From assembly GCA_009773565.1 (NCBI GenBank), contig WSXY01000012.1, forward strand, positions 1 to 54,956: 54,956 nt of DNA, in the 5' to 3' direction. Positions 22,104-32,013 of the stretch are shown one piece after another (positions within the stretch are counted from its first letter, which is position 1; each line of letters starts with the position of its first letter). The position numbers were made by a program, and so were the translations under genes. The notes under the pieces were generated by a model, which worked only from the letters and a program-made list of their open reading frames with translations, did not search any database and was not told where the DNA came from. This DNA comes from Actinomycetota bacterium. GTDB taxonomy: Bacteria; Actinomycetota; Coriobacteriia; Anaerosomatales; Anaerosomataceae.

Positions 22104-22886
22104 CTAGGCGTGTATCGGCGCGATGTGCTTGACGAGCGTCACCGCGGTCCCACCGTCCGGGCACGAGGCGAACTCGACCGTGTCCATGAGGGCACGCATG
22201 AATATGACGCCTCGGCCAGACGATGCGTACAGATCATCACTCGATAATGTCGAGCCATCGAACCCGTCGCCAGTATCAGTGATCTTGATTGAGACGCAAT
22301 CCTCGTATGCGGCAACTTCAATACTGATGTCATCCGAGGCGCCGCCCGGGGAACCATGCCGAATCGCATTGGCGAGCGCTTCCCCGACTGCAACGCGGAT
22401 ATCAAACATGGCAGCCTCAGAAATGCCGAGCGAACCGAGCATCATACACACGCCCGTGCGTACTTCAGCTAGCGTTGCCGCGGACGCTGGCAGGACCATC
22501 TCTTCTCGCCACAGAGGAGATAACGTAGTGTCGCCCCGGTCGAGCCCCGAAAGGGCGGAAATGACATCGATTGAAGCAGCAATCGTCGGAGCCGCCCCCA
22601 CGAGCCCCGAGAGTTCGAGAACGCGGCTCACATTGCCGTCGGCACCAGCGAGTACAAGCTTGCCCTCCAGCGGAACGAGCTGACGATCCAGCCACACGAG
22701 CAGGCTGAACGAGGAGCTGTCGGCGTATGAGACCCTCGACAGGTCGAGAACGACGTTTGCGCAACCGCGCTTGAGCGCTGTCATGATGCTCTCCCGGACC
22801 CGCGGCACGCTCTGCAGGTCGAGTTCTCCATCCATTCTGACAACGCATGCTCGCGCTTCGTCACGGTATTCGATGTCGATGTTCAC
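22104..22886 (-). CDS. STAS domain fused to an RsbW-like HATPase
   Basis: 260 residues. The N-terminal STAS domain (about 1-110) has VVLDLSRVSYADSSSFSLLV, with serines at the position phosphorylated in SpoIIAA/RsbV proteins. The C-terminal half is a GHKL ATPase of the anti-sigma/RsbW type with DIRVAVGEALANAIRHG (N box), ITDTGDGFD (G1) and SGRGVIFMRALMD (G2). Normally these are separate partners, an antagonist and a kinase. Here they share a chain. The gene follows a SpoIIE-type phosphatase gene by 54 bp, so the fused protein is a likely substrate. No cognate sigma factor is nearby. Confidence 0.88.
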   Translation of the reverse strand: MNIDIEYRDEARACVVRMDGELDLQSVPRVRESIMTALKRGCANVVLDLSRVSYADSSSFSLLVWLDRQLVPLEGKLVLAGADGNVSRVLELSGLVGAAPTIAASIDVISALSGLDRGDTTLSPLWREEMVLPASAATLAEVRTGVCMMLGSLGISEAAMFDIRVAVGEALANAIRHGSPGGASDDISIEVAAYEDCVSIKITDTGDGFDGSTLSSDDLYASSGRGVIFMRALMDTVEFASCPDGGTAVTLVKHIAPIHA

Positions 22887-22940
22887 GATACGGGACTCCT
22901 ATGAGTCATATGTCGTGCGTAGTCCTGACTTTCCCCGGCC

Positions 22941-25900
22941 TCACTCGCACATAACACTCCCGGAGGAATCACTCTCGACATCAGGCCTGCGAACCACAAG
23001 GATTGCGGCATCGTCACGGAGTTCGCCCGCTGCGAATCGCTGCACCGCCGCAAGCAGCCGATCCGTCACGGCCGCCGCCGATCCACCTTGGCGTAATGCG
23101 CGCCTGACTCGACCTTCGCCAAAGAAGTGCCCCTTAACGCGAGCCTCGGTAACGCCGTCAGTGTAGAGCATCAGTGTAGAGCCAGGAGCGACCACGAGCC
23201 GAGACTCGCCGAAATCGGCCGACATCACGGCCCCGAGCAGAGCACCGGTCGTCTCGAGCCGGAGAATCTCGCCACAGGGCGTCAGCACCATAGCCGGCGG
23301 GTGACCGCCATTGGCCCAGGTCAACTGCCCATCCGAAATTGTAAGTGTACCGAGCCACAACGTCACAATGTCTGATGGGTCCCCGGACTCTACAAGCAGG
23401 CGGTTGAGCTCGGCCAATACCGGGCCGGGAGTCGCGCCAGCCGCAATCATGCCACGGATAAGGTACTTGATCATCGACGTCTTCGTAGCCGCCTCGACAC
23501 CCTTGCCACAGACGTCGCCGATTGCCATGACAAGGCGACCGTCCGGCGCGACAAAGAGATCGTAGTAGTCCCCGCCAATCTCCAGCTCACTGCCCGCAGG
23601 GACATAAGCACTCGATGCGTCGATTCCCTCGATGAGGGGAAGCTCCGTCGGAAGAATGCTCTCCTGAAGCACCGTAGCCACATGGTGCTCCCGGCTGAAG
23701 AGATTCGCCGTATCGATTGCCAGGGCCGCCTGTGAGCCAAAAGTGCGCAGAAGATCAAGATCCTCGGCTGTGAAAGCATCCGCGCTACGCCCGAAAAGCG
23801 CGAGAACACCGAGGGAGCGACCCCGGGCCAGGAGCGGCACGAAGATAGCAGACTCGAGTCCCTGGGAGACGGCGGCTGCGGCAAGGCGGGACTCAAGATC
23901 CCGAAGTGTGGCAATCCGCTCGGGCTCCTTTGTCGAGTACACTCTGCCCGGAATATCGACGCCGGGGGGAAACACCATCTCAAGCATTTCGGGATGCAGA
24001 ATGCCGCGCGCCATGGGAACACTCATGAACTTCTTGTCCCGCTCGTAGGTCATCAACATGACCGCATCAGCCGAGAGTATCTTCTGGACGACATCAAGCA
24101 CCCGATTGAGCACGACCTTGCTCTGTAGCGACGAGCTGACCGCCTGCGATATCCGGAAGATGGTCTCCAGGTTATCTGCACGGTTTCGCGCCTGCTCGAA
24201 GAGACAGGCTACATCGAGCGCCAGTCCAACCTGCTTCCCAATCGTATCCGCGATCGCGAGTCCGTAGCTGCCGCGCGCGAATGGGTTCGTGTGATCTCCG
24301 AGCACGATCAATCCGGCGATATCGGAGCCCTGGTGGAGCGGCGTCACCAGCAAATAGCGTGCGTCGAATGCAGCCGCGAACGCTAAGAGCCCGGCATCAA
24401 TCAGAGTGTCGTGAAGTACCGGCCGCGCAGAAGAGTCAGCCGCATGCAGTGCCCAGCTCTCCAGGAGACGCGATTCAAGCACCGGGTCATTGGGAGGCTT
24501 CGATCCGAGTGCGCCAGGGACCGACAGGGCAACGAAGACCGTGCTCATTCCAAGCGCATCTGCCTCGACGGCCGCCACTTCCTCAATAGCAGCACGCAGG
24601 TCCTCCGGGCCACTCAAGAGCTCAGCGGTTCGTCGAAGCACCTCGGCCTCGCGACGGGAACGGCGTTCCTCGGCAAACAATCGGGCGTTATCGAGCGCAA
24701 CGGATGCCTGCGCCGCGAAGGAACGCATCATGTCGATTTCAGCGGCGGCAAACGTACGCCCATCCTCACACACAACGATAACGGCACCGAGAACTTCAGT
24801 GCCCTTGACGAAGGCGGCAGAAAGCCCTGACATGCCCTCAATGCCGTGTAGCGCGATGACCGTATCATCCGATGCGCTACCGTCGAAGACCTCGACATCC
24901 CGGTTCTCGAGCGTGCGGCTAATCAACTCGGATGTGCTTACCTCAACGACCTGCTCCTGGTGATCGGAGAGCGACCCGATTGCACGAACGAGCCGCAGGT
25001 TCATGCAATCATCGTCGATGAGCAGCACGCCCACGTTCTGGGCGTTCAGCATATGAGCGAGCGAGGAAACGATACCGTCAAGAACCTCATCGCGATCGGC
25101 CGACCGCGCCAGGAGTTGCGACATGTCATGCATCCGCCTCAGCCTGTCAGCAACCGAGTTGAAGGACTCAATCAGACGACCCACCTCGTCACGCCGACCG
25201 ACTGCAAGCGGTTCCAGGAGCGCGCCCGACGCGGCCGCGCGCGCATGAGCATCGAGTAGCCGCAGCGGCCTCACAAGCAAGCCGACACCAACGACAGCAA
25301 CGATGGCAACGAAGAGTGCGGATACTCCCCAGGCGAAGATGGCTGGCCGTAGAGCAAGCCAGGTCTCCCAAGCGACGAAGTCGGCGGGCTCGACTACCAC
25401 ACACCGCCAACCGATTCCGGGAACGTCGGCAATCTGCTGGTAGACACCTTTGAATTCAACGGTCTCCTTAACTGTGATCTGGACCGCGCCAGGCGTCGCC
25501 GCAGCTCCGTCGGCATACGAGACAAGCCCGTTTCGATACGCATCGGGATCACCTGCAGCGAAGAGGATCACTCCGGATTCGTCGACCAGAAACGCCGTGG
25601 GCTGCTCTTCTGACAACGCAAGCTGACGCAGCGCGCTGTCGATGAAGGCTGTACGCACCTCACCGAGGAGGATCCTTTCCTCTCCGCCCGCAGTCCGTAG
25701 GCGAACAGCAAACCACAGGGTGCCACCCCTGCCGCCGTGCGTCGCGAGCCAGTTGAACTCGCCGACCAGAGTTGCTTCCGAAGCGAGAAGGGACCTCTCC
25801 ACGTCAGTAGGCCCGATTCCCGCGGGGTACTCGCTGAGAATCTCTCCGTCGGAACGTATGACGACGATTCCACGGAGATACTCAGCGTTGCTCGCAAAAG

Positions 25901-26186
25901 CCGCAGCAAGTGCACGGCGAACCGTCAGTTCGTCTCCAGCCTCCAGCTCAGGTCGCAAAGACAGCGTCGTAAGCACCCTGCTGGACGTTAGAACGTGGCC
26001 TGCGACCTGGCTCTGTACGACTTCGCTCTGCGCCCGCTGACGGGCGGACTCCTCGCGAAGCGCCATACGATATACGCCGCTTGCAGAGGCGAACCCGAGC
26101 AGCGCGGTCGTAAAGAGCACAAGGAGCGCCGCGAGGAGCATGTACCTGTTGGCGAGGCTCTGGTTGAGTCGCTTGCGCCGAATCAT
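22941..26186 (-). CDS. Membrane sensor phosphatase: extracytoplasmic domain, HAMP, three GAF, SpoIIE/PP2C
   Basis: 1081 residues. Helix 1 (YMLLAALLVLFTTALLGFA) and a second helix around 290-320 bracket a roughly 250-residue extracytoplasmic sensor resembling Cache domains. A HAMP linker (LLVRPLRLLDAHARAAASG) follows, then three GAF modules starting near LLARSADRDEVLDGI, LRRTAELLSGPEDLRAAI and RISQAVSSSLQSKVVLN. The last 240 residues form a SpoIIE-type PP2C with EIGGDYYDLFVAPDGR, AIGDVCGKGVEAATK and LMLYTDGVTEAR, which keep the metal-binding aspartates. It should dephosphorylate a STAS protein in response to an external signal. GTG at 26192 is an alternative start; a frame extending to 26573 runs through ccdA and is rejected. 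Confidence 0.9.
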   Translation of the reverse strand: MIRRKRLNQSLANRYMLLAALLVLFTTALLGFASASGVYRMALREESARQRAQSEVVQSQVAGHVLTSSRVLTTLSLRPELEAGDELTVRRALAAAFASNAEYLRGIVVIRSDGEILSEYPAGIGPTDVERSLLASEATLVGEFNWLATHGGRGGTLWFAVRLRTAGGEERILLGEVRTAFIDSALRQLALSEEQPTAFLVDESGVILFAAGDPDAYRNGLVSYADGAAATPGAVQITVKETVEFKGVYQQIADVPGIGWRCVVVEPADFVAWETWLALRPAIFAWGVSALFVAIVAVVGVGLLVRPLRLLDAHARAAASGALLEPLAVGRRDEVGRLIESFNSVADRLRRMHDMSQLLARSADRDEVLDGIVSSLAHMLNAQNVGVLLIDDDCMNLRLVRAIGSLSDHQEQVVEVSTSELISRTLENRDVEVFDGSASDDTVIALHGIEGMSGLSAAFVKGTEVLGAVIVVCEDGRTFAAAEIDMMRSFAAQASVALDNARLFAEERRSRREAEVLRRTAELLSGPEDLRAAIEEVAAVEADALGMSTVFVALSVPGALGSKPPNDPVLESRLLESWALHAADSSARPVLHDTLIDAGLLAFAAAFDARYLLVTPLHQGSDIAGLIVLGDHTNPFARGSYGLAIADTIGKQVGLALDVACLFEQARNRADNLETIFRISQAVSSSLQSKVVLNRVLDVVQKILSADAVMLMTYERDKKFMSVPMARGILHPEMLEMVFPPGVDIPGRVYSTKEPERIATLRDLESRLAAAAVSQGLESAIFVPLLARGRSLGVLALFGRSADAFTAEDLDLLRTFGSQAALAIDTANLFSREHHVATVLQESILPTELPLIEGIDASSAYVPAGSELEIGGDYYDLFVAPDGRLVMAIGDVCGKGVEAATKTSMIKYLIRGMIAAGATPGPVLAELNRLLVESGDPSDIVTLWLGTLTISDGQLTWANGGHPPAMVLTPCGEILRLETTGALLGAVMSADFGESRLVVAPGSTLMLYTDGVTEARVKGHFFGEGRVRRALRQGGSAAAVTDRLLAAVQRFAAGELRDDAAILVVRRPDVESDSSGSVMCE

Positions 26187-26263: not shown

Positions 26264-27010
26264 TCAGCCCAGTTTTGAGAGGAACGGCACGAGTTCGATC
26301 ATGAGGGCCGAAAGGCGCCCAAGCTGACCGGTCGCCATGAGGATGCCCATGAGCACGAGGATCGCGCCCGCTACCCGACTGATGATGAGAGAGTGCGTGT
26401 TGAACCACGCAAGCGTGCCTGTGAGGCGGCTGAAGAACGCTGCGGTCAGCAAGAACGGAACCGCCAGACCCAGCGAATAGACGCCCAGCATCGCGGCAGA
26501 TCTCGCAACGTCGCCCGTCTGCGCAGCCATACCCAGAATGACTGCCAGAATCGGACCGACGCACGGTGTCCACCCGAAACCGAACGCCAGCCCCATCGCA
26601 AACGAAGCCGCACGACCGAACCGACGCGACTTCGCCATGTCGAACCGGGCCTCGCCGTAGAGCCAGGGAACCTTGATGACGCCCAGAAGCAGCACGCCGA
26701 TGAGTATGACAAGAACACCTGAAACGACACCCAGAATCCCCTGGTACTGGATCATCAGGGGTCGAAGCGCGTCGCTTGCGAAGCCTGCGGCGGCGCCAAT
26801 GAGAACGAACACGGTCGTGAATCCAAGTGTGAACAGGATGCTTGGGACGAGGATGCTCCGCTTTGCAGACTCACCGGAGCCAATCTCGGCAACGCTTAAT
26901 CCGGTCATGAAGGACAGGTATCCCGGAATGAGCGGCAGGACACAGGGAGCGAGAAACGACAGAACCCCGCCTACGAAAGCCCCGAGGTAATTGACGTCTG
27001 TGCCGGACAC
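26264..27010 (-). CDS. ccdA: CcdA/DsbD-type thiol-disulfide membrane transporter
   Basis: 248 residues with six hydrophobic helices. Helix 1 carries FLAPCVLPLIPGYL and helix 4 the matching GWTPCVGPILAVILG, the two conserved cysteines that shuttle reducing power across the membrane. Known relatives supply electrons for cytochrome c maturation or extracytoplasmic thiol-oxidoreductases. The GTG start lies 3 nt after the HMA gene stop. Next to a heavy-metal-binding protein, a metal-thiol relay is as plausible as cytochrome maturation; no c-type cytochrome gene is seen here. Confidence 0.9.
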   Translation of the reverse strand: MSGTDVNYLGAFVGGVLSFLAPCVLPLIPGYLSFMTGLSVAEIGSGESAKRSILVPSILFTLGFTTVFVLIGAAAGFASDALRPLMIQYQGILGVVSGVLVILIGVLLLGVIKVPWLYGEARFDMAKSRRFGRAASFAMGLAFGFGWTPCVGPILAVILGMAAQTGDVARSAAMLGVYSLGLAVPFLLTAAFFSRLTGTLAWFNTHSLIISRVAGAILVLMGILMATGQLGRLSALMIELVPFLSKLG

Positions 27011-27013
27011 TGC

Positions 27014-27238
27014 TTAATCAGCGACTTCTGCGCCGTATCCGACCTTGACGATCTCATGCACGATTGCACCGGGATTCGTGAGGTCCGGGTCGTAGACGAC
27101 TTCGGTCAAGCCGGTCGCATTGTCGGCCAAAACCGATTCGACGCCTTCGATATCCTCAAGACTCATCTGGATGAGCATCGAGCAAGAACCGCAATGCATC
27201 CCGGTCGTCGTGAACCGCGTTGTCACGAGGTCAGCCAT
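27014..27238 (-). CDS. Heavy-metal-associated (HMA) domain protein
   Basis: 74 residues forming one HMA/CopZ-like ferredoxin-fold domain with the metal site GMHCGSC (Cys16, Cys19). The remainder fits the fold: MSLEDIEGVESVLADNATGL, then VVYDPDLTNPGAIVHEI. It binds a soft metal ion such as Cu(I), or acts with thiol partners. The ATG at 27238 has GGGGTG 6 nt upstream. It sits between the zinc-ribbon membrane protein and ccdA on one transcript. Confidence 0.88.
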   Translation of the reverse strand: MADLVTTRFTTTGMHCGSCSMLIQMSLEDIEGVESVLADNATGLTEVVYDPDLTNPGAIVHEIVKVGYGAEVAD

Positions 27239-27275: not shown

Positions 27276-27614
27276 TCAGACCCGCCTGGAATACCTCGGG
27301 TCGAGCACCTCGCCACAGTACGGGCACATTCGCCACTCACCCATCACAGTACGCCCGCACTCCGGGCACTCGGCAGCGGGAACATGAGTGTCATCTTCTT
27401 CGATTCTGTGGTCCTGGCGCAGCAACACCCAGGCCAGCGCGCCGATAATGGATGCTGCCAGAAGCGGCGCCAACCAGCCGAACTGCGCCGTGCTGGTACA
27501 CCCCTCGAACCCTGAGCCCGCGTTGACGAGCAACACGAGGGCGACAACGACAACGACGGTGACAGCACCCGCCGCTGCCACCAGTAAAAGCCCTTGGACA
27601 CGCGTACGATCCAT
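27276..27614 (-). CDS. Two-helix membrane protein with C-terminal zinc ribbon
   Basis: 112 residues. Two transmembrane helices (about 8-30 and 47-65) are followed by a polar linker and a cytoplasmic zinc ribbon with CPECG (Cys83, Cys86) and CPYCG (Cys97, Cys100). The function is unknown. The ribbon could bind Zn2+ structurally or sense metal or thiol state. It is the first gene after a textbook sigma-54 promoter, 37 bp ahead of the HMA gene, and is therefore the leading product of that regulated operon. Confidence 0.8.
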   Translation of the reverse strand: MDRTRVQGLLLVAAAGAVTVVVVVALVLLVNAGSGFEGCTSTAQFGWLAPLLAASIIGALAWVLLRQDHRIEEDDTHVPAAECPECGRTVMGEWRMCPYCGEVLDPRYSRRV

Positions 27615-27656
27615 GCCCCTACCCTCGCGTCGATATCAGCCAACAGCACGATTCTG

Positions 27657-27672
27657 TGCAATAGACGTGCCA
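27657..27672 (-). promoter_or_regulatory. Sigma-54 (-24/-12) promoter of the zinc ribbon-HMA-ccdA operon
   Basis: On the minus strand the sequence is TGGCAC-GTCTA-TTGCA, matching the sigma-54 consensus at every conserved position. GG and GC are separated by exactly 10 bp. The expected transcription start is near 27646, about 32 nt before the ATG. The NtrC-like activator gene ends 27 bp upstream. Confidence 0.88.
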
Positions 27673-27698: not shown

Positions 27699-29048
27699 TC
27701 AGAGGCCGTACTTCGCCATGCGCGCCTCGAGCGTCTTCGTCGTCAGACCGAGAAGCTTCGCGGCCTTCGGAACGTTTCCTCCGGAGCGATCAAGCCCCTG
27801 TCGGACGAAATCGAGTTCTACTTCCTCGAGGTCGACGCCGCCTTCCGGCAGAACAAAGCAACGCTCACCGGGCGCAAACATCGAGACACCGGACCGGACC
27901 TCGGCCGGAAGGTCCTCAGCACCGATCTCGTCACCGCGGGACAGGATCGCGATTCGCTCGATCGTGTTCTCAAGTTCTCGAACGTTGCCGGGCCATTGAT
28001 ACTCCATGAGCAGACGCATCGCCTCAGATGAAATGTGCTTGCTGCCCGCGCTCTGCTTCTCGAGAAAGTGTGCCACCAGTAGCGGTATCTCACTCGGTCT
28101 CTGACGCAGCGGTGGCAACGTGATGGGCACGACATTCAGTCGATAGTAGAGATCCTCCCTGAAAGCGCCATCAGCGATAAGCTGCTGTAGATCCTGGTTC
28201 GTCGCCGCCACGACCCGAACATCGACCTCAAGGGTACGCGTCCCCCCGAGTCGCTCAAAGGTTCGCTCCTGGAGCACCCTGAGCAGCTTGACCTGTACAG
28301 CGAGGCTGATATCTCCGATCTCATCGAGGAAGATCGTGCCACCGTTTGCCAGTTCGAATCGGCCTGGTTTGGCCTGCATGGCGCCCGTGAAGGCACCCTT
28401 CTCGTAGCCAAAGAGCTCACTCTCGAGGAGCGTCTCGGGTAGAGCACCGGCGCTGACCGAAACGAACGGCCGCGCCGAACGGGTCGACATCTTGTGGAGC
28501 GCCCGCGCCGCGAGTTCTTTGCCGGTGCCCGACTCGCCGTAGAGAATCACGGTCGCATTCGTCGGTGCGACCTTGCCGATGGTCTCTAAGACGGAGAGCA
28601 TCGCCGGGTCGGCGGCTACGATTCCTTCGACATCGTAGTCGCGGTCAAGCTCTTCTCTTAACCGCTCGACCTCAGCAGCGAGCGCGCTCACCTTAAGCGC
28701 CTTCTCGATACTGATCTTGAGTTCCTCTAGATCGAAAGGCTTCGTGAGGTACTCGCTTGCTCCTGCCTTCATGGCGGCAACAGCGGTTGTCACGTTGCCG
28801 TGCGCCGTGAGCATGATAATCGGGAACACGTTGCCCTTCGCTCTGAGCCGACGGAGAACCTCCATGCCGTCCGGGGCGGGCATCTTGTGGTCGAGAACCA
28901 TAAGGTCCGGCGGCTGCTCGGCCACAGCAGTCAGTGCCTCTTTACCATCTGCAGCTTCGATCACCTCATAGCCTTCGGCGGAGAGCGCCTGGGCAAGCAC
29001 CCAGCGCATGTTCTTCTCGTCGTCCGCAATGAGAACGCGACGTTTCAT
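27699..29048 (-). CDS. NtrC-family sigma-54-dependent response regulator
   Basis: 449 residues. The receiver domain has Asp53 in MVLDHKMPAPDG and Lys103 in LTKPFD. The AAA+ domain has Walker A GESGTGKE (171-178), the sigma-54 contact loop EKGAFTGAM (GAFTGA at 218-223), Walker B GGTIFLDEIGD and the arginine-bearing FREDLYYRLNV. The C-terminus is a Fis-type helix-turn-helix (GGNVPKAAKLLGLTTKTLEARM). It remodels sigma-54 polymerase from an upstream enhancer. Its ATG overlaps the kinase stop (TGATG). Both sigma-54 promoters found here lie close to its gene and are its likely targets. Confidence 0.95.
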   Translation of the reverse strand: MKRRVLIADDEKNMRWVLAQALSAEGYEVIEAADGKEALTAVAEQPPDLMVLDHKMPAPDGMEVLRRLRAKGNVFPIIMLTAHGNVTTAVAAMKAGASEYLTKPFDLEELKISIEKALKVSALAAEVERLREELDRDYDVEGIVAADPAMLSVLETIGKVAPTNATVILYGESGTGKELAARALHKMSTRSARPFVSVSAGALPETLLESELFGYEKGAFTGAMQAKPGRFELANGGTIFLDEIGDISLAVQVKLLRVLQERTFERLGGTRTLEVDVRVVAATNQDLQQLIADGAFREDLYYRLNVVPITLPPLRQRPSEIPLLVAHFLEKQSAGSKHISSEAMRLLMEYQWPGNVRELENTIERIAILSRGDEIGAEDLPAEVRSGVSMFAPGERCFVLPEGGVDLEEVELDFVRQGLDRSGGNVPKAAKLLGLTTKTLEARMAKYGL

Positions 29049-30580
29049 CAGGCCTCCCCGGCATCGTGGATGATAGGAATCGACACGGTGAAGGTCGTAC
29101 CCGTACCCTCCGCGCTCGCAACCTCGATGTGCCCATCGTGCTCATCCAGAATGCGATGAACGATAGTGAGCCCAAGGCCGGTTCCCTCGTCGCGCGTCGA
29201 ATAGAACGGGTCGAACACCTTCTTGAGATCGTCAGACGGTATACCCGGTCCGGTGTCGGAAACGGCAACCGATACAAAACCTTCATTGGCGCACGCACGC
29301 ACTTCGATGGAGCCCCCGGTCTGGCTCATGGCCTGAACCGCATTTGAGATGAGGTTCACAAATACCTGCTTGAGCTGGTCAGGGTCGGCCATAACCCGCG
29401 GCAGACCCTTGACGTCCAGCGACGAGATTGACACGTTCGACTGCCCGGCAAAACGACGTGTAAAGAGCAAGACGTCGTCCACAACATCGGCAATATCAGT
29501 CACCGCCAGGTGCGGCTTCGACGGACGACCGAAGTCCAGAAGCGCCTTGATGACGCGATCGAGACGGTCGATCTCCTGCTTGATGACGCTCGTCGCCTCA
29601 AGAAGGCGGTCCTTGTTGAAGCTCGATTCCTCGACGAGTTGCACCGACGCTCTGATGATTCCGAGCGGATTCCGAACCTCGTGAGCAACGCCGGCGGTGA
29701 GCTCGCCCATCGCAGCGAGCCTGTCGGCGCGAATGAGTTGATCCGTCAGAGCCTTGACCTCGGAAACATCCTCAACGGTGACAACCGCGCCGAGAATCCT
29801 CCCGTCGATGTCACGCATCCGAGAAATCGACACCTGCGCCTGAAGGACCTTGCCTCCCCGAGTCAGAAGCCGCATCTCTTTGACCGACTTTGGCAGCCGG
29901 CCCTCGAGAACCTTCATAACCTCATCGTCAAGACCTGCGTCTTCGGCAAACAGGATGCCGATACGCTTCGGCACGATGTCGACCTCCCGCATGCCGAGAA
30001 TACGCTCTGCTGCCGGATTTGCAGTTGCCATCGATCCATCCGGTCCAACGGTGATGACTCCCGATGTGATCGATCGGAGGATTGCCTGTGTGTAATCCTG
30101 GATGTTCACGAGCTGAATCGCCCGCTCTTCAAGCTTGCGGTACGCATCCTCAAGCTGATGACTCACCTGCCGAAGGTCTGCGGTCTTCACCTCAGCAAGG
30201 TCCCTGAGCCAACCAAACAGAACGCCGACCGCAAGGTACATCACGATTTCGTACAGATTGTCGATACCGCTACCGAACAGTCCGCCCAGGGAAACGGTGG
30301 CGTGAAGACCGTAGAGCATGCTCGCGGCGACAGCCGTGATCAAGCCGCCGCGCCGCCCGAAAACGAAGCCCGCGTACATGATGGGCAAGTAGAAGAGCTT
30401 CCTGTAAAGAAGGTGCATCGGCATCGCTTCGGGTGACGTATTCGTGAAGAGGTGAAGGAAGGTTACAGCCGCCAGGAGGGTGACGATCATCAGGACATCA
30501 CGCGCCACTGAATCATCAGGCCGCTGGTTCGCACCGTACAGGCCGGTGTCGCGCCTATCCGCTATGGGTTGCGACTTCAT
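29048..30580 (-). CDS. NtrB-like membrane histidine kinase with PAS domain
   Basis: 510 residues. Four to five N-terminal hydrophobic helices (about 29-125, including LFYLPIMYAGFVFGRRGGL) form a membrane sensor with little exposed loop. A PAS domain follows (about 165-275), then HisKA with His300 in GVAHEVRNPLGII and a HATPase with NLISNAVQAM, VSDTGPGIP and GTGLGLTIVHRIL. It is the cognate kinase of the NtrC-like regulator downstream. The ATG at 30580 overlaps the rpoN stop (ATGA); a GTG six codons earlier is possible. The signal is not readable from sequence; membrane-embedded sensors often read envelope, redox or lipid state. Confidence 0.92.
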   Translation of the reverse strand: MKSQPIADRRDTGLYGANQRPDDSVARDVLMIVTLLAAVTFLHLFTNTSPEAMPMHLLYRKLFYLPIMYAGFVFGRRGGLITAVAASMLYGLHATVSLGGLFGSGIDNLYEIVMYLAVGVLFGWLRDLAEVKTADLRQVSHQLEDAYRKLEERAIQLVNIQDYTQAILRSITSGVITVGPDGSMATANPAAERILGMREVDIVPKRIGILFAEDAGLDDEVMKVLEGRLPKSVKEMRLLTRGGKVLQAQVSISRMRDIDGRILGAVVTVEDVSEVKALTDQLIRADRLAAMGELTAGVAHEVRNPLGIIRASVQLVEESSFNKDRLLEATSVIKQEIDRLDRVIKALLDFGRPSKPHLAVTDIADVVDDVLLFTRRFAGQSNVSISSLDVKGLPRVMADPDQLKQVFVNLISNAVQAMSQTGGSIEVRACANEGFVSVAVSDTGPGIPSDDLKKVFDPFYSTRDEGTGLGLTIVHRILDEHDGHIEVASAEGTGTTFTVSIPIIHDAGEA

Positions 30581-31965
30581 CGGCGCTTCCGTGCCCACGA
30601 AGGTTCGATGCCGATCTCCTCGCGGTACTTGGCGACGGTTCTCCTCGCCACGTCCACACCCTCAGCAGCCAATAGGTCTGCCAGGCGCTGGTCCGAAAGC
30701 GGACGTAGGGGATCCTCACCCTCCAGGTACTCACGAATCTTTCGCTTCACGGTCGTGGCGGCGACATCCATTCCGGACGACGTTCGGTAACCGCCTGAGA
30801 AGAAGTGCTTGAGTTCGAACAGGCCATAGGGTGTGGCGATGTATTTCCCGGTCACACCGCGACTCACCGTGCTCAGATGGACGCCGATCTCAACGGCCAC
30901 ATCTTCCAAACGGAGCGGCCGGAGATCGCCTCGGCCGTCCTCGAAGAAATCGTGCTGCGTCTCCAGGATGATCTGGGCGATACGACTCACGGTATCGCGC
31001 CGGCGATCGACATTGCGCATGAACGACTCGGCGGCCCGAATCTTCTCCTTGAGATAGCGCCTCGTATCATCGTCAACCGATGACTTCGACCGAAGCATCT
31101 GGCGGTAGCGCGGACTGACCTTGAGCGTCGGGACCGCCTCGTTGTTCGGGATGATCAGCCATTCGTCACCGAAGCGCCGCAGGGTCACATCAGGCACGAC
31201 ATACGAGGGCGCCTGACCGGGCGAGAATGCGCCGGCGGGACGAGGATTGAGCTGCCGCAAGATCACGATAGACTCCCGAACCGCGTCCTCGGTCACATGC
31301 TCAGCGCGCGCGATCTTGCGATGATGATTCGCTGCAACCGCATCAAGATGCCGCTCGATCAGCGCGACGAGCAGTGGCTCATCCACGCCGAGATACGCAG
31401 CCTGGATGCGGAGTGCCTCATGAACAGTGCGAGCTCCCACGCCCGGCGGATCGAGTTGCTGGATGATATCAAGCGCCTGCTCGGCTATTTCGAGCTCAAC
31501 ATTCGCAATCGCGGAAATCTCCGCAAAATCCCCCACAAAGAGGCCGTCGTGATCCAATGTTCCGATGATGGCGAGCGCTGCACGTCGAACCGACTCCGAA
31601 ACGTCCATCATGTTGAGCTGGTCGATGAGATAGTCATCGAACGTCTGGACTCCACCGACGAACTCCTCGGAGTTCACTTCCTCCGCATTGGGGTCGCGAG
31701 GCGAGGTGGAGTCGAGGTTCTCAAGCTCATCGTACTGATCGAGCCACTCGTCCCACGCACGTTCATCCTCTGGATCGTCCCGCTCGTCCTCGCGCTCTTC
31801 CTCGGGTTCATCCTCTTCCATCTCCAGGACAGGGTTTTCGAGCAACTCGGTCTCAACGAGCGTCTGAAGCTCGGCGACCGGCATCGCGAGAATCGTAAGC
31901 CCCTGATAGACCTGAGGCGATAGGGTGACTTTATGGCGGAGTTCAGGCCGCTGTGCGAGTTCCAT
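30577..31965 (-). CDS. rpoN: RNA polymerase sigma-54 factor
   Basis: 462 residues. Region I begins MELAQRPELRHKVTLSPQ, is leucine-rich rather than glutamine-rich, and ends in LLENPVLE. Region II is strongly acidic. The core-binding region and the DNA-binding region follow (VAVEIGVHLSTVSRGVTGKY), and the C-terminal RpoN box is ARRTVAKYRE. The ATG at 31965 has GGAGGT 4 nt away; a TTG four codons earlier lies within that ribosome binding site. It heads a three-gene operon with its own kinase and activator. Sigma-54 is missing from most actinobacteria, so its presence helps place the organism. Confidence 0.95.
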   Translation of the reverse strand: MELAQRPELRHKVTLSPQVYQGLTILAMPVAELQTLVETELLENPVLEMEEDEPEEEREDERDDPEDERAWDEWLDQYDELENLDSTSPRDPNAEEVNSEEFVGGVQTFDDYLIDQLNMMDVSESVRRAALAIIGTLDHDGLFVGDFAEISAIANVELEIAEQALDIIQQLDPPGVGARTVHEALRIQAAYLGVDEPLLVALIERHLDAVAANHHRKIARAEHVTEDAVRESIVILRQLNPRPAGAFSPGQAPSYVVPDVTLRRFGDEWLIIPNNEAVPTLKVSPRYRQMLRSKSSVDDDTRRYLKEKIRAAESFMRNVDRRRDTVSRIAQIILETQHDFFEDGRGDLRPLRLEDVAVEIGVHLSTVSRGVTGKYIATPYGLFELKHFFSGGYRTSSGMDVAATTVKRKIREYLEGEDPLRPLSDQRLADLLAAEGVDVARRTVAKYREEIGIEPSWARKRR

Positions 31966-32013
31966 CAGGACCTCCAATCACACGGCCGCGCATCTGAGCG
32001 AAATCGAGCCGCA

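Follow-up and report, generated by a model that had tools for sequence, protein, structure and literature searches.

Membrane kinases paired with NtrC-family regulators act with sigma-54 in ZraSR (HydHG) and AtoSC, of which ZraSR answers envelope and metal stress. The well-known CopA/CopZ copper-export operons, with their HMA chaperone, copper P-type ATPase and cupredoxins, are controlled by CueR, CsoR, CopY or CopRS; the small RNAs Qrr and CrcZ, transcribed by sigma-54 with an NtrC-family activator, are gammaproteobacterial. Two further groups of RNA are relevant here: actinobacterial 6C (RF01066), ~100 nt with two C-rich hairpins of which the second is a terminator, and the alphaproteobacterial ar14/CcsR-type RNAs, with multiple hairpins exposing CCUCC-type loops. 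According to work cited in PMC6789036, the 6C RNA of Mycobacterium tuberculosis uses its C-rich loops to bind mRNA targets. A reference survey of sigma-54 places Actinobacteria among the bacteria without the system (PMC3162934), and the open-licence literature on sigma-54 or rpoN and Coriobacteriia, and on sigma-54 with CcdA and copper, yielded no account of a system such as that described below for an order of Coriobacteriia taken to be Anaerosomatales (OPB41).

The window (the whole stretch of 54,956 nt that was analysed) carries the following features on its minus strand, in the order in which they are read.

30577..31977, minus: RpoN (sigma-54), 466 aa; PF00309, PF04963 and PF04552, TIGR02395 over cut-off; single copy
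29048..30598, minus: membrane PAS sensor histidine kinase; PAS, HisKA and HATPase_c
27699..29048, minus: NtrC-family response regulator (sigma-54 activator), 449 aa, with GAFTGA motif; PF00158 (E 1.5e-70), receiver and Fis-type HTH
27657..27672, minus (read 27672 to 27657): predicted sigma-54 -24/-12 promoter TGGCACGTCTATTGCA; exact match, with orthologous elements in relatives
27276..27614, minus: membrane zinc-ribbon protein, 112 aa, first gene of the operon; Zn_ribbon_3 (PF13248)
27014..27238, minus: HMA metallochaperone-like protein, 74 aa, with MHCxSC; PF00403 (E 3e-12)
26264..27010, minus: CcdA/DsbD-type transmembrane thiol-electron carrier, 248 aa; PF02683 (DsbD_TM, E 4e-15)
22941..26171, minus: Cache-HAMP-GAF-SpoIIE phosphatase, next gene downstream of CcdA; from its domains, order the same in relatives
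22104..22886, minus: STAS-HATPase (RsbV/RsbW-like) protein, after SpoIIE; from its domains

The window pair shares with ZraSR and AtoSC a membrane kinase and an NtrC-family regulator that would act with sigma-54; it differs in its targets, in the linkage of rpoN to the pair and in its host among the Actinobacteria. All scores against the curated cut-offs were far below them (ZraR 390 vs 760, AtoC 489 vs 714, AtoS 357 vs 646, ZraS 212 vs 479), and none of the targets inspected resembled ZraP, the target of ZraSR. Because of the ZraS and ZraR scores and the other targets, the system was not classed as ZraSR.

RpoN contains all three sigma-54 domains (AID, core-binding and DNA-binding) and a conserved RpoN box, ARRTVAKYRE, and the membrane part of the kinase has three histidines (His49, His62, His99) conserved in 35-37 of 41 sequences. 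Both CxxC knuckles of the zinc-ribbon protein are invariant (38/38), as are the two cysteines of the HMA protein (40/40; its His in 39/40) and membrane Cys23 and Cys150 of the CcdA-type protein (38/38), which together with the DsbD_TM match are the marks of CcdA/DsbD carriers. The gene calls of the sequence-only reading (zinc ribbon PF13248, HMA PF00403, DsbD_TM PF02683, Sigma54_activat PF00158) were thus all borne out by profile matches. The order CDF, EamA, rpoN, kinase, regulator, zinc-ribbon, HMA, CcdA, SpoIIE is kept in most of 40 relatives and across many families. Whether the SpoIIE gene, behind a gap of ~93 nt, is co-transcribed with the operon is uncertain, as is membership of the STAS-HATPase gene in the operon transcript; the SpoIIE phosphatase and RsbV/RsbW-like fusion (22104-26171) are kept directly 3' of CcdA across the order, a possible tie to a partner-switching stress system.

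TGGCAC-N5-TTGCA with GG-N10-GC spacing had been proposed for positions 27657-27672, right after the NtrC-like activator gene and ahead of the zinc-ribbon gene. Coordinates and spacing are right and the match is exact; the strand, which the reading did not give, is minus. The element begins 26 nt past the stop of the NtrC-like gene and ends 42 nt ahead of the zinc-ribbon ATG, with rpoN and the cognate kinase gene just upstream, and transcription is predicted to start near 27646. The window has no other exact match; when 2 mismatches were allowed there were 11 matches, the same as in shuffles, so that the motif by itself proves little. Across the 2.27-Mb window genome TGGCAYN5TTGCA occurs exactly once, at this site.

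We examined if the element is kept before orthologous operons, as the sequence-only reading had suggested checking, in sequence stretches no longer than 16 kb taken from 40 relatives (41 genomes with the window genome); all sites of GG-N10-GC type between 60 nt ahead of the regulator stop and 500 nt past it were scored. The best-scoring site was TGGCA[C/T]-N5-TTGCA, 5-63 nt past the orthologous regulator stop, in 40/41 genomes of the order; the lone exception (L093, genome G040) no longer has a zinc-ribbon or a CcdA gene. The order consensus is YTGGCAYR-N4-TTGCA: flanks and spacer are unconserved, except for a pyrimidine (nearly always T) just before TGGCAY and a purine after it in 40/40. Scanning for sigma-70 alternatives at the window site found none. 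By this comparison the promoter is under selection, and the proposal of a sigma-54 promoter for the zinc ribbon-HMA-CcdA operon is well supported, because the GG/GC element is kept in orthologous upstream regions across the order and because rpoN and the genome's sole sigma-54 activator are encoded directly upstream.

The wider search for targets used the 15-mer TGGCAY-N5-TTGC and a reversed-pattern control. Genomes held 7-14 occurrences each, not above the control, and therefore only sites in conserved context were counted; statements on genome-wide gene context rest on individual genome stretches. Within eight genomes the 15-mer recurs at four kinds of place, namely the zinc-ribbon operon, an operon for a Cys-rich exported protein and a DsbD_2 protein (7/8 genomes), clpC, and a non-coding stretch with C-rich hairpins. 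In the window genome (G000) the additional targets are as follows.

G000:C1:104500-116500 (L464), element at C1:113614-113600, minus: second operon with a conserved sigma-54-type element
G000:C13:17406-17420 (L041/L417), minus: sigma-54-type element ~100 nt before clpC; conserved in 45/51 genomes
G000:C1:211396-211493 (L292), plus: small RNA copy behind a sigma-54 element
G000:C4:83630-83731 (L306), minus: small RNA copy behind a sigma-54 element

The second operon encodes, in the window genome, the Cys-rich exported protein, a DsbD_2-Cupredoxin_1 protein, a Cupredoxin_1 protein, a copper P-type ATPase with HMA domains (TIGR01511, copper-translocating, 612 bits vs cut-off 397) and a DUF7282 lipoprotein. 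It differs from known CopA/CopZ operons, with which it has these components in common, by its sigma-54 element. Since several relatives (L070, L078, L089, L090, L102) have DsbD_2, cupredoxin or CopA genes within the zinc-ribbon operon itself, the two operons appear linked and copper is indicated.

At clpC the element lies 109-153 nt upstream of the start, with the GG-N10-GC geometry and at most 1 mismatch in its 10 specified bases. There TGGCAY is mostly followed by a pyrimidine, and in the zinc-ribbon sites and most small RNA sites by a purine; some genera (G002, G012) lack the clpC site, and in one family it is weak. Because of this pyrimidine and these absences, clpC is perhaps a weaker target, or one that is used differently.

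Sites before the tmRNA gene (L246, L248), in tilS (L038) and in a multihaem cytochrome gene (L039), and other matches in single genomes, are coding or unshared and were set aside as chance. In one genus TGGCAC-N5-TTGCA stands ~180 nt before hemA (G002:C1:1074696, G012:C2:333459; L236, L239); behind it comes a long stretch, conserved, GC-rich and hairpin-like, that may be a further sigma-54 transcript or a leader. A MASE1 sensor kinase gene of the window genome (L466:3954-5729; G000:C12, site C12:286899) also has an exact TGGCAC-N5-TTGC 40 nt ahead of it, with no counterpart seen in the other genomes checked.

The non-coding stretch specifies a family of RNAs of ~100 nt with two C-rich hairpins, the second a terminator. 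A first alignment of 15 copies gave a consensus of two hairpins with two-sided changes at 15 of 24 pairs; a covariance model built from the RNA without its promoter was then searched in 61 genomes and found 92 copies in 59 of them, mostly two per genome. Over 89 distinct sequences 23/24 pairs had two-sided changes and 94% of cells were paired (vs 36-55% in slid structures), figures that lean towards structure because that alignment was fitted to the model. The two copies of the window genome have fold z-scores of -5.9 and -6.9. One is flanked by a CRP-like gene and a WYL-regulator gene, as is a copy in G040, and the other by pstB and an aldo-keto reductase gene (names read from translations). 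The C-run is present in loop 1 of 91/92 copies and likewise in loop 2 of 91/92, and TGGCAY-N5-TTGC (at most 1 mismatch) stands 25-29 nt upstream of the model start in 89/92, 78 of them perfect; the independent count is 75/78, since 14 of the 92 copies came via the element or went into the model. No convincing palindromic activator site was shared upstream of the small RNA and zinc-ribbon promoters, the search giving several equally good optima of low specificity.

Rfam gave no match above gathering score for this RNA; Qrr and CrcZ were not among its matches, and the nearest neighbours below gathering were 6C and ar14. That it is the lineage's form of 6C rather than a new family is possible, if doubtful: the topology is the same, with runs of ~6 C in the two hairpins, and 6C is among the best similarities (24.2 and 19.0 bits, and up to 39 bits in the search of the 61 genomes), but the gathering score of 47 was not reached in any of the 61 genomes, on which ground an assignment to 6C was rejected. 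The RNA differs from 6C also in the sigma-54 element at nearly every locus and in its usual two copies per genome. One of the window genome's own copies scores higher with ar14, at 27.7 bits vs a gathering score of 58.8 and in another phylum, so that the C-rich loops may be convergent. Nothing strong was found with the model in 20 Coriobacteriia without rpoN and 12 other actinobacterial genomes with rpoN matches (best E 0.006), and the RNA thus tracks the lineage. By these comparisons it is probably a previously undescribed family.

The sequence-only reading, confined to the window operon, therefore understated the case: this operon is one target in a small conserved regulon that also takes in the copper-ATPase operon, clpC and the new RNA family, a target set that emerges, like the promoter element, its conservation and the RNA structure, from comparison between genomes. 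The window genome, a draft assembly of 98.5% completeness and the only one in which activators were counted, carries a single rpoN and a single true sigma-54 activator (its two remaining PF00158 matches are weak AAA+), and therefore the kinase/regulator pair should serve one regulon. We consider it likely that this pair and sigma-54 run a copper/thiol stress regulon with a small RNA arm, comprising the zinc-ribbon operon, the copA operon, clpC and the small RNAs.

For the signal, the phosphorelay, transcription and the targets and mode of action of the RNA, we infer the following sequence of events. The membrane kinase (29048-30598) probably responds at the envelope to a metal or thiol signal, of which copper excess is the most likely, and would phosphorylate the regulator (27699-29048), which, using ATP, would open the sigma-54 promoters; many of the parts would also suit a response to zinc, mercury, silver or general thiol stress. 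RNA polymerase-sigma-54 would then transcribe the window operon from the -24/-12 site, along with the Cys-rich/DsbD_2-cupredoxin/cupredoxin/copper ATPase operon, clpC and two copies of the ~100-nt RNA. The operon proteins would chaperone copper, reduce around it and export it, and ClpC would clear damaged protein. The RNA may repress mRNAs through its anti-Shine-Dalgarno-like CCUCCCCCC loop, the C-rich loops acting on G-rich ribosome-binding sites by analogy with 6C of M. tuberculosis; when the window was searched for sequences able to pair with the loop (AGGGGGGAGG, 2 mismatches), matches were fewer than expected by chance. We lean somewhat towards the circuit in full, in which sigma-54 is kept in the whole order for copper/thiol stress with one activator, a two-copy C-rich RNA transcribed by sigma-54 represses translation, and ClpC, CopA and CcdA handle the damage.

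Three other explanations of the regulon and its element were weighed. A chance match of the window element in a GC-rich intergenic region, which the shuffle-level count of 2-mismatch matches would allow, is refuted by the exact element at the orthologous place in nearly all genomes with drifting flanks, and its probability is close to nil. It is rather unlikely that the regulon is real and answers general envelope or redox stress or c-type cytochrome maturation, the copper genes being just part of the response. ClpC and the nearby RsbW/SpoIIE partner system do suggest a wider stress, the membrane histidines of the kinase could bind haem or quinone, and CcdA serves cytochrome c maturation in other bacteria. 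Cultured Anaerosomatales, too, have multihaem cytochrome clusters and reduce Fe(III) (PMC9686372). The extended operons inspected, however, held no cytochrome c synthetase gene, and their extra genes were those for copper ATPase, cupredoxin and DsbD_2.

The window site could also be the one true sigma-54 promoter, with some of the others, especially clpC, under another regulator that has a similar motif. The systematic pyrimidine after TGGCAY at clpC and the control-level 15-mer counts speak for such a split, which we nonetheless hold to be improbable, given the narrow distance range, the few mismatches and the same GG-N10-GC geometry in 45 of the 51 clpC upstream regions.

Under the preferred reading, a single copper/thiol stress regulon, an order of Coriobacteriia (underground actinobacteria) carries a near-minimal sigma-54 circuit, though the phylum is said to lack the system. 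As the regulon is largely readable from sequence, this is a rare case in which the reason for retaining sigma-54 could be checked with a handful of promoters; if true, copper/thiol stress, ClpC and a new small RNA family would join the known roles of sigma-54, and the RNA family would gain a regulator and a testable target rule.

The distribution of rpoN is uneven: it was found in 59/61 genomes of the order and in 21/396 genomes sampled across the phylum (several of the 21 weak), and in the phylum scan most genomes from three further families of this class lacked it. The rpoN, kinase and regulator clusters of other actinobacterial lineages (L217, L218, L219, L223) have neither an adjoining zinc-ribbon-HMA-CcdA operon nor the small RNA; L217 does have a -24/-12-like site, ahead of a DUF4418 gene that lies a few kb downstream of its regulator. 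Genomes of one more family of the class (L224, L225, L226) also carry rpoN, regulator genes and TGGCAC-N5-TTGC sites, but neither this operon nor the RNA.

We know of no description of the Firmicutes version of the locus, in Thermoanaerobacterium saccharolyticum (L109). It has in common with the window a related kinase and regulator (regulator 53% identity) and genes for a zinc-ribbon protein, CcdA and an HMA P-type ATPase; it differs by its divergent layout, its phylum and the lack of rpoN in the stretch examined. Two divergent -24/-12 elements (L109:4600-8000) appear to serve the zinc-ribbon, kinase and regulator genes and a lipoprotein-like-CcdA pair, and on this comparison the locus lends support to the regulon model from outside the phylum.
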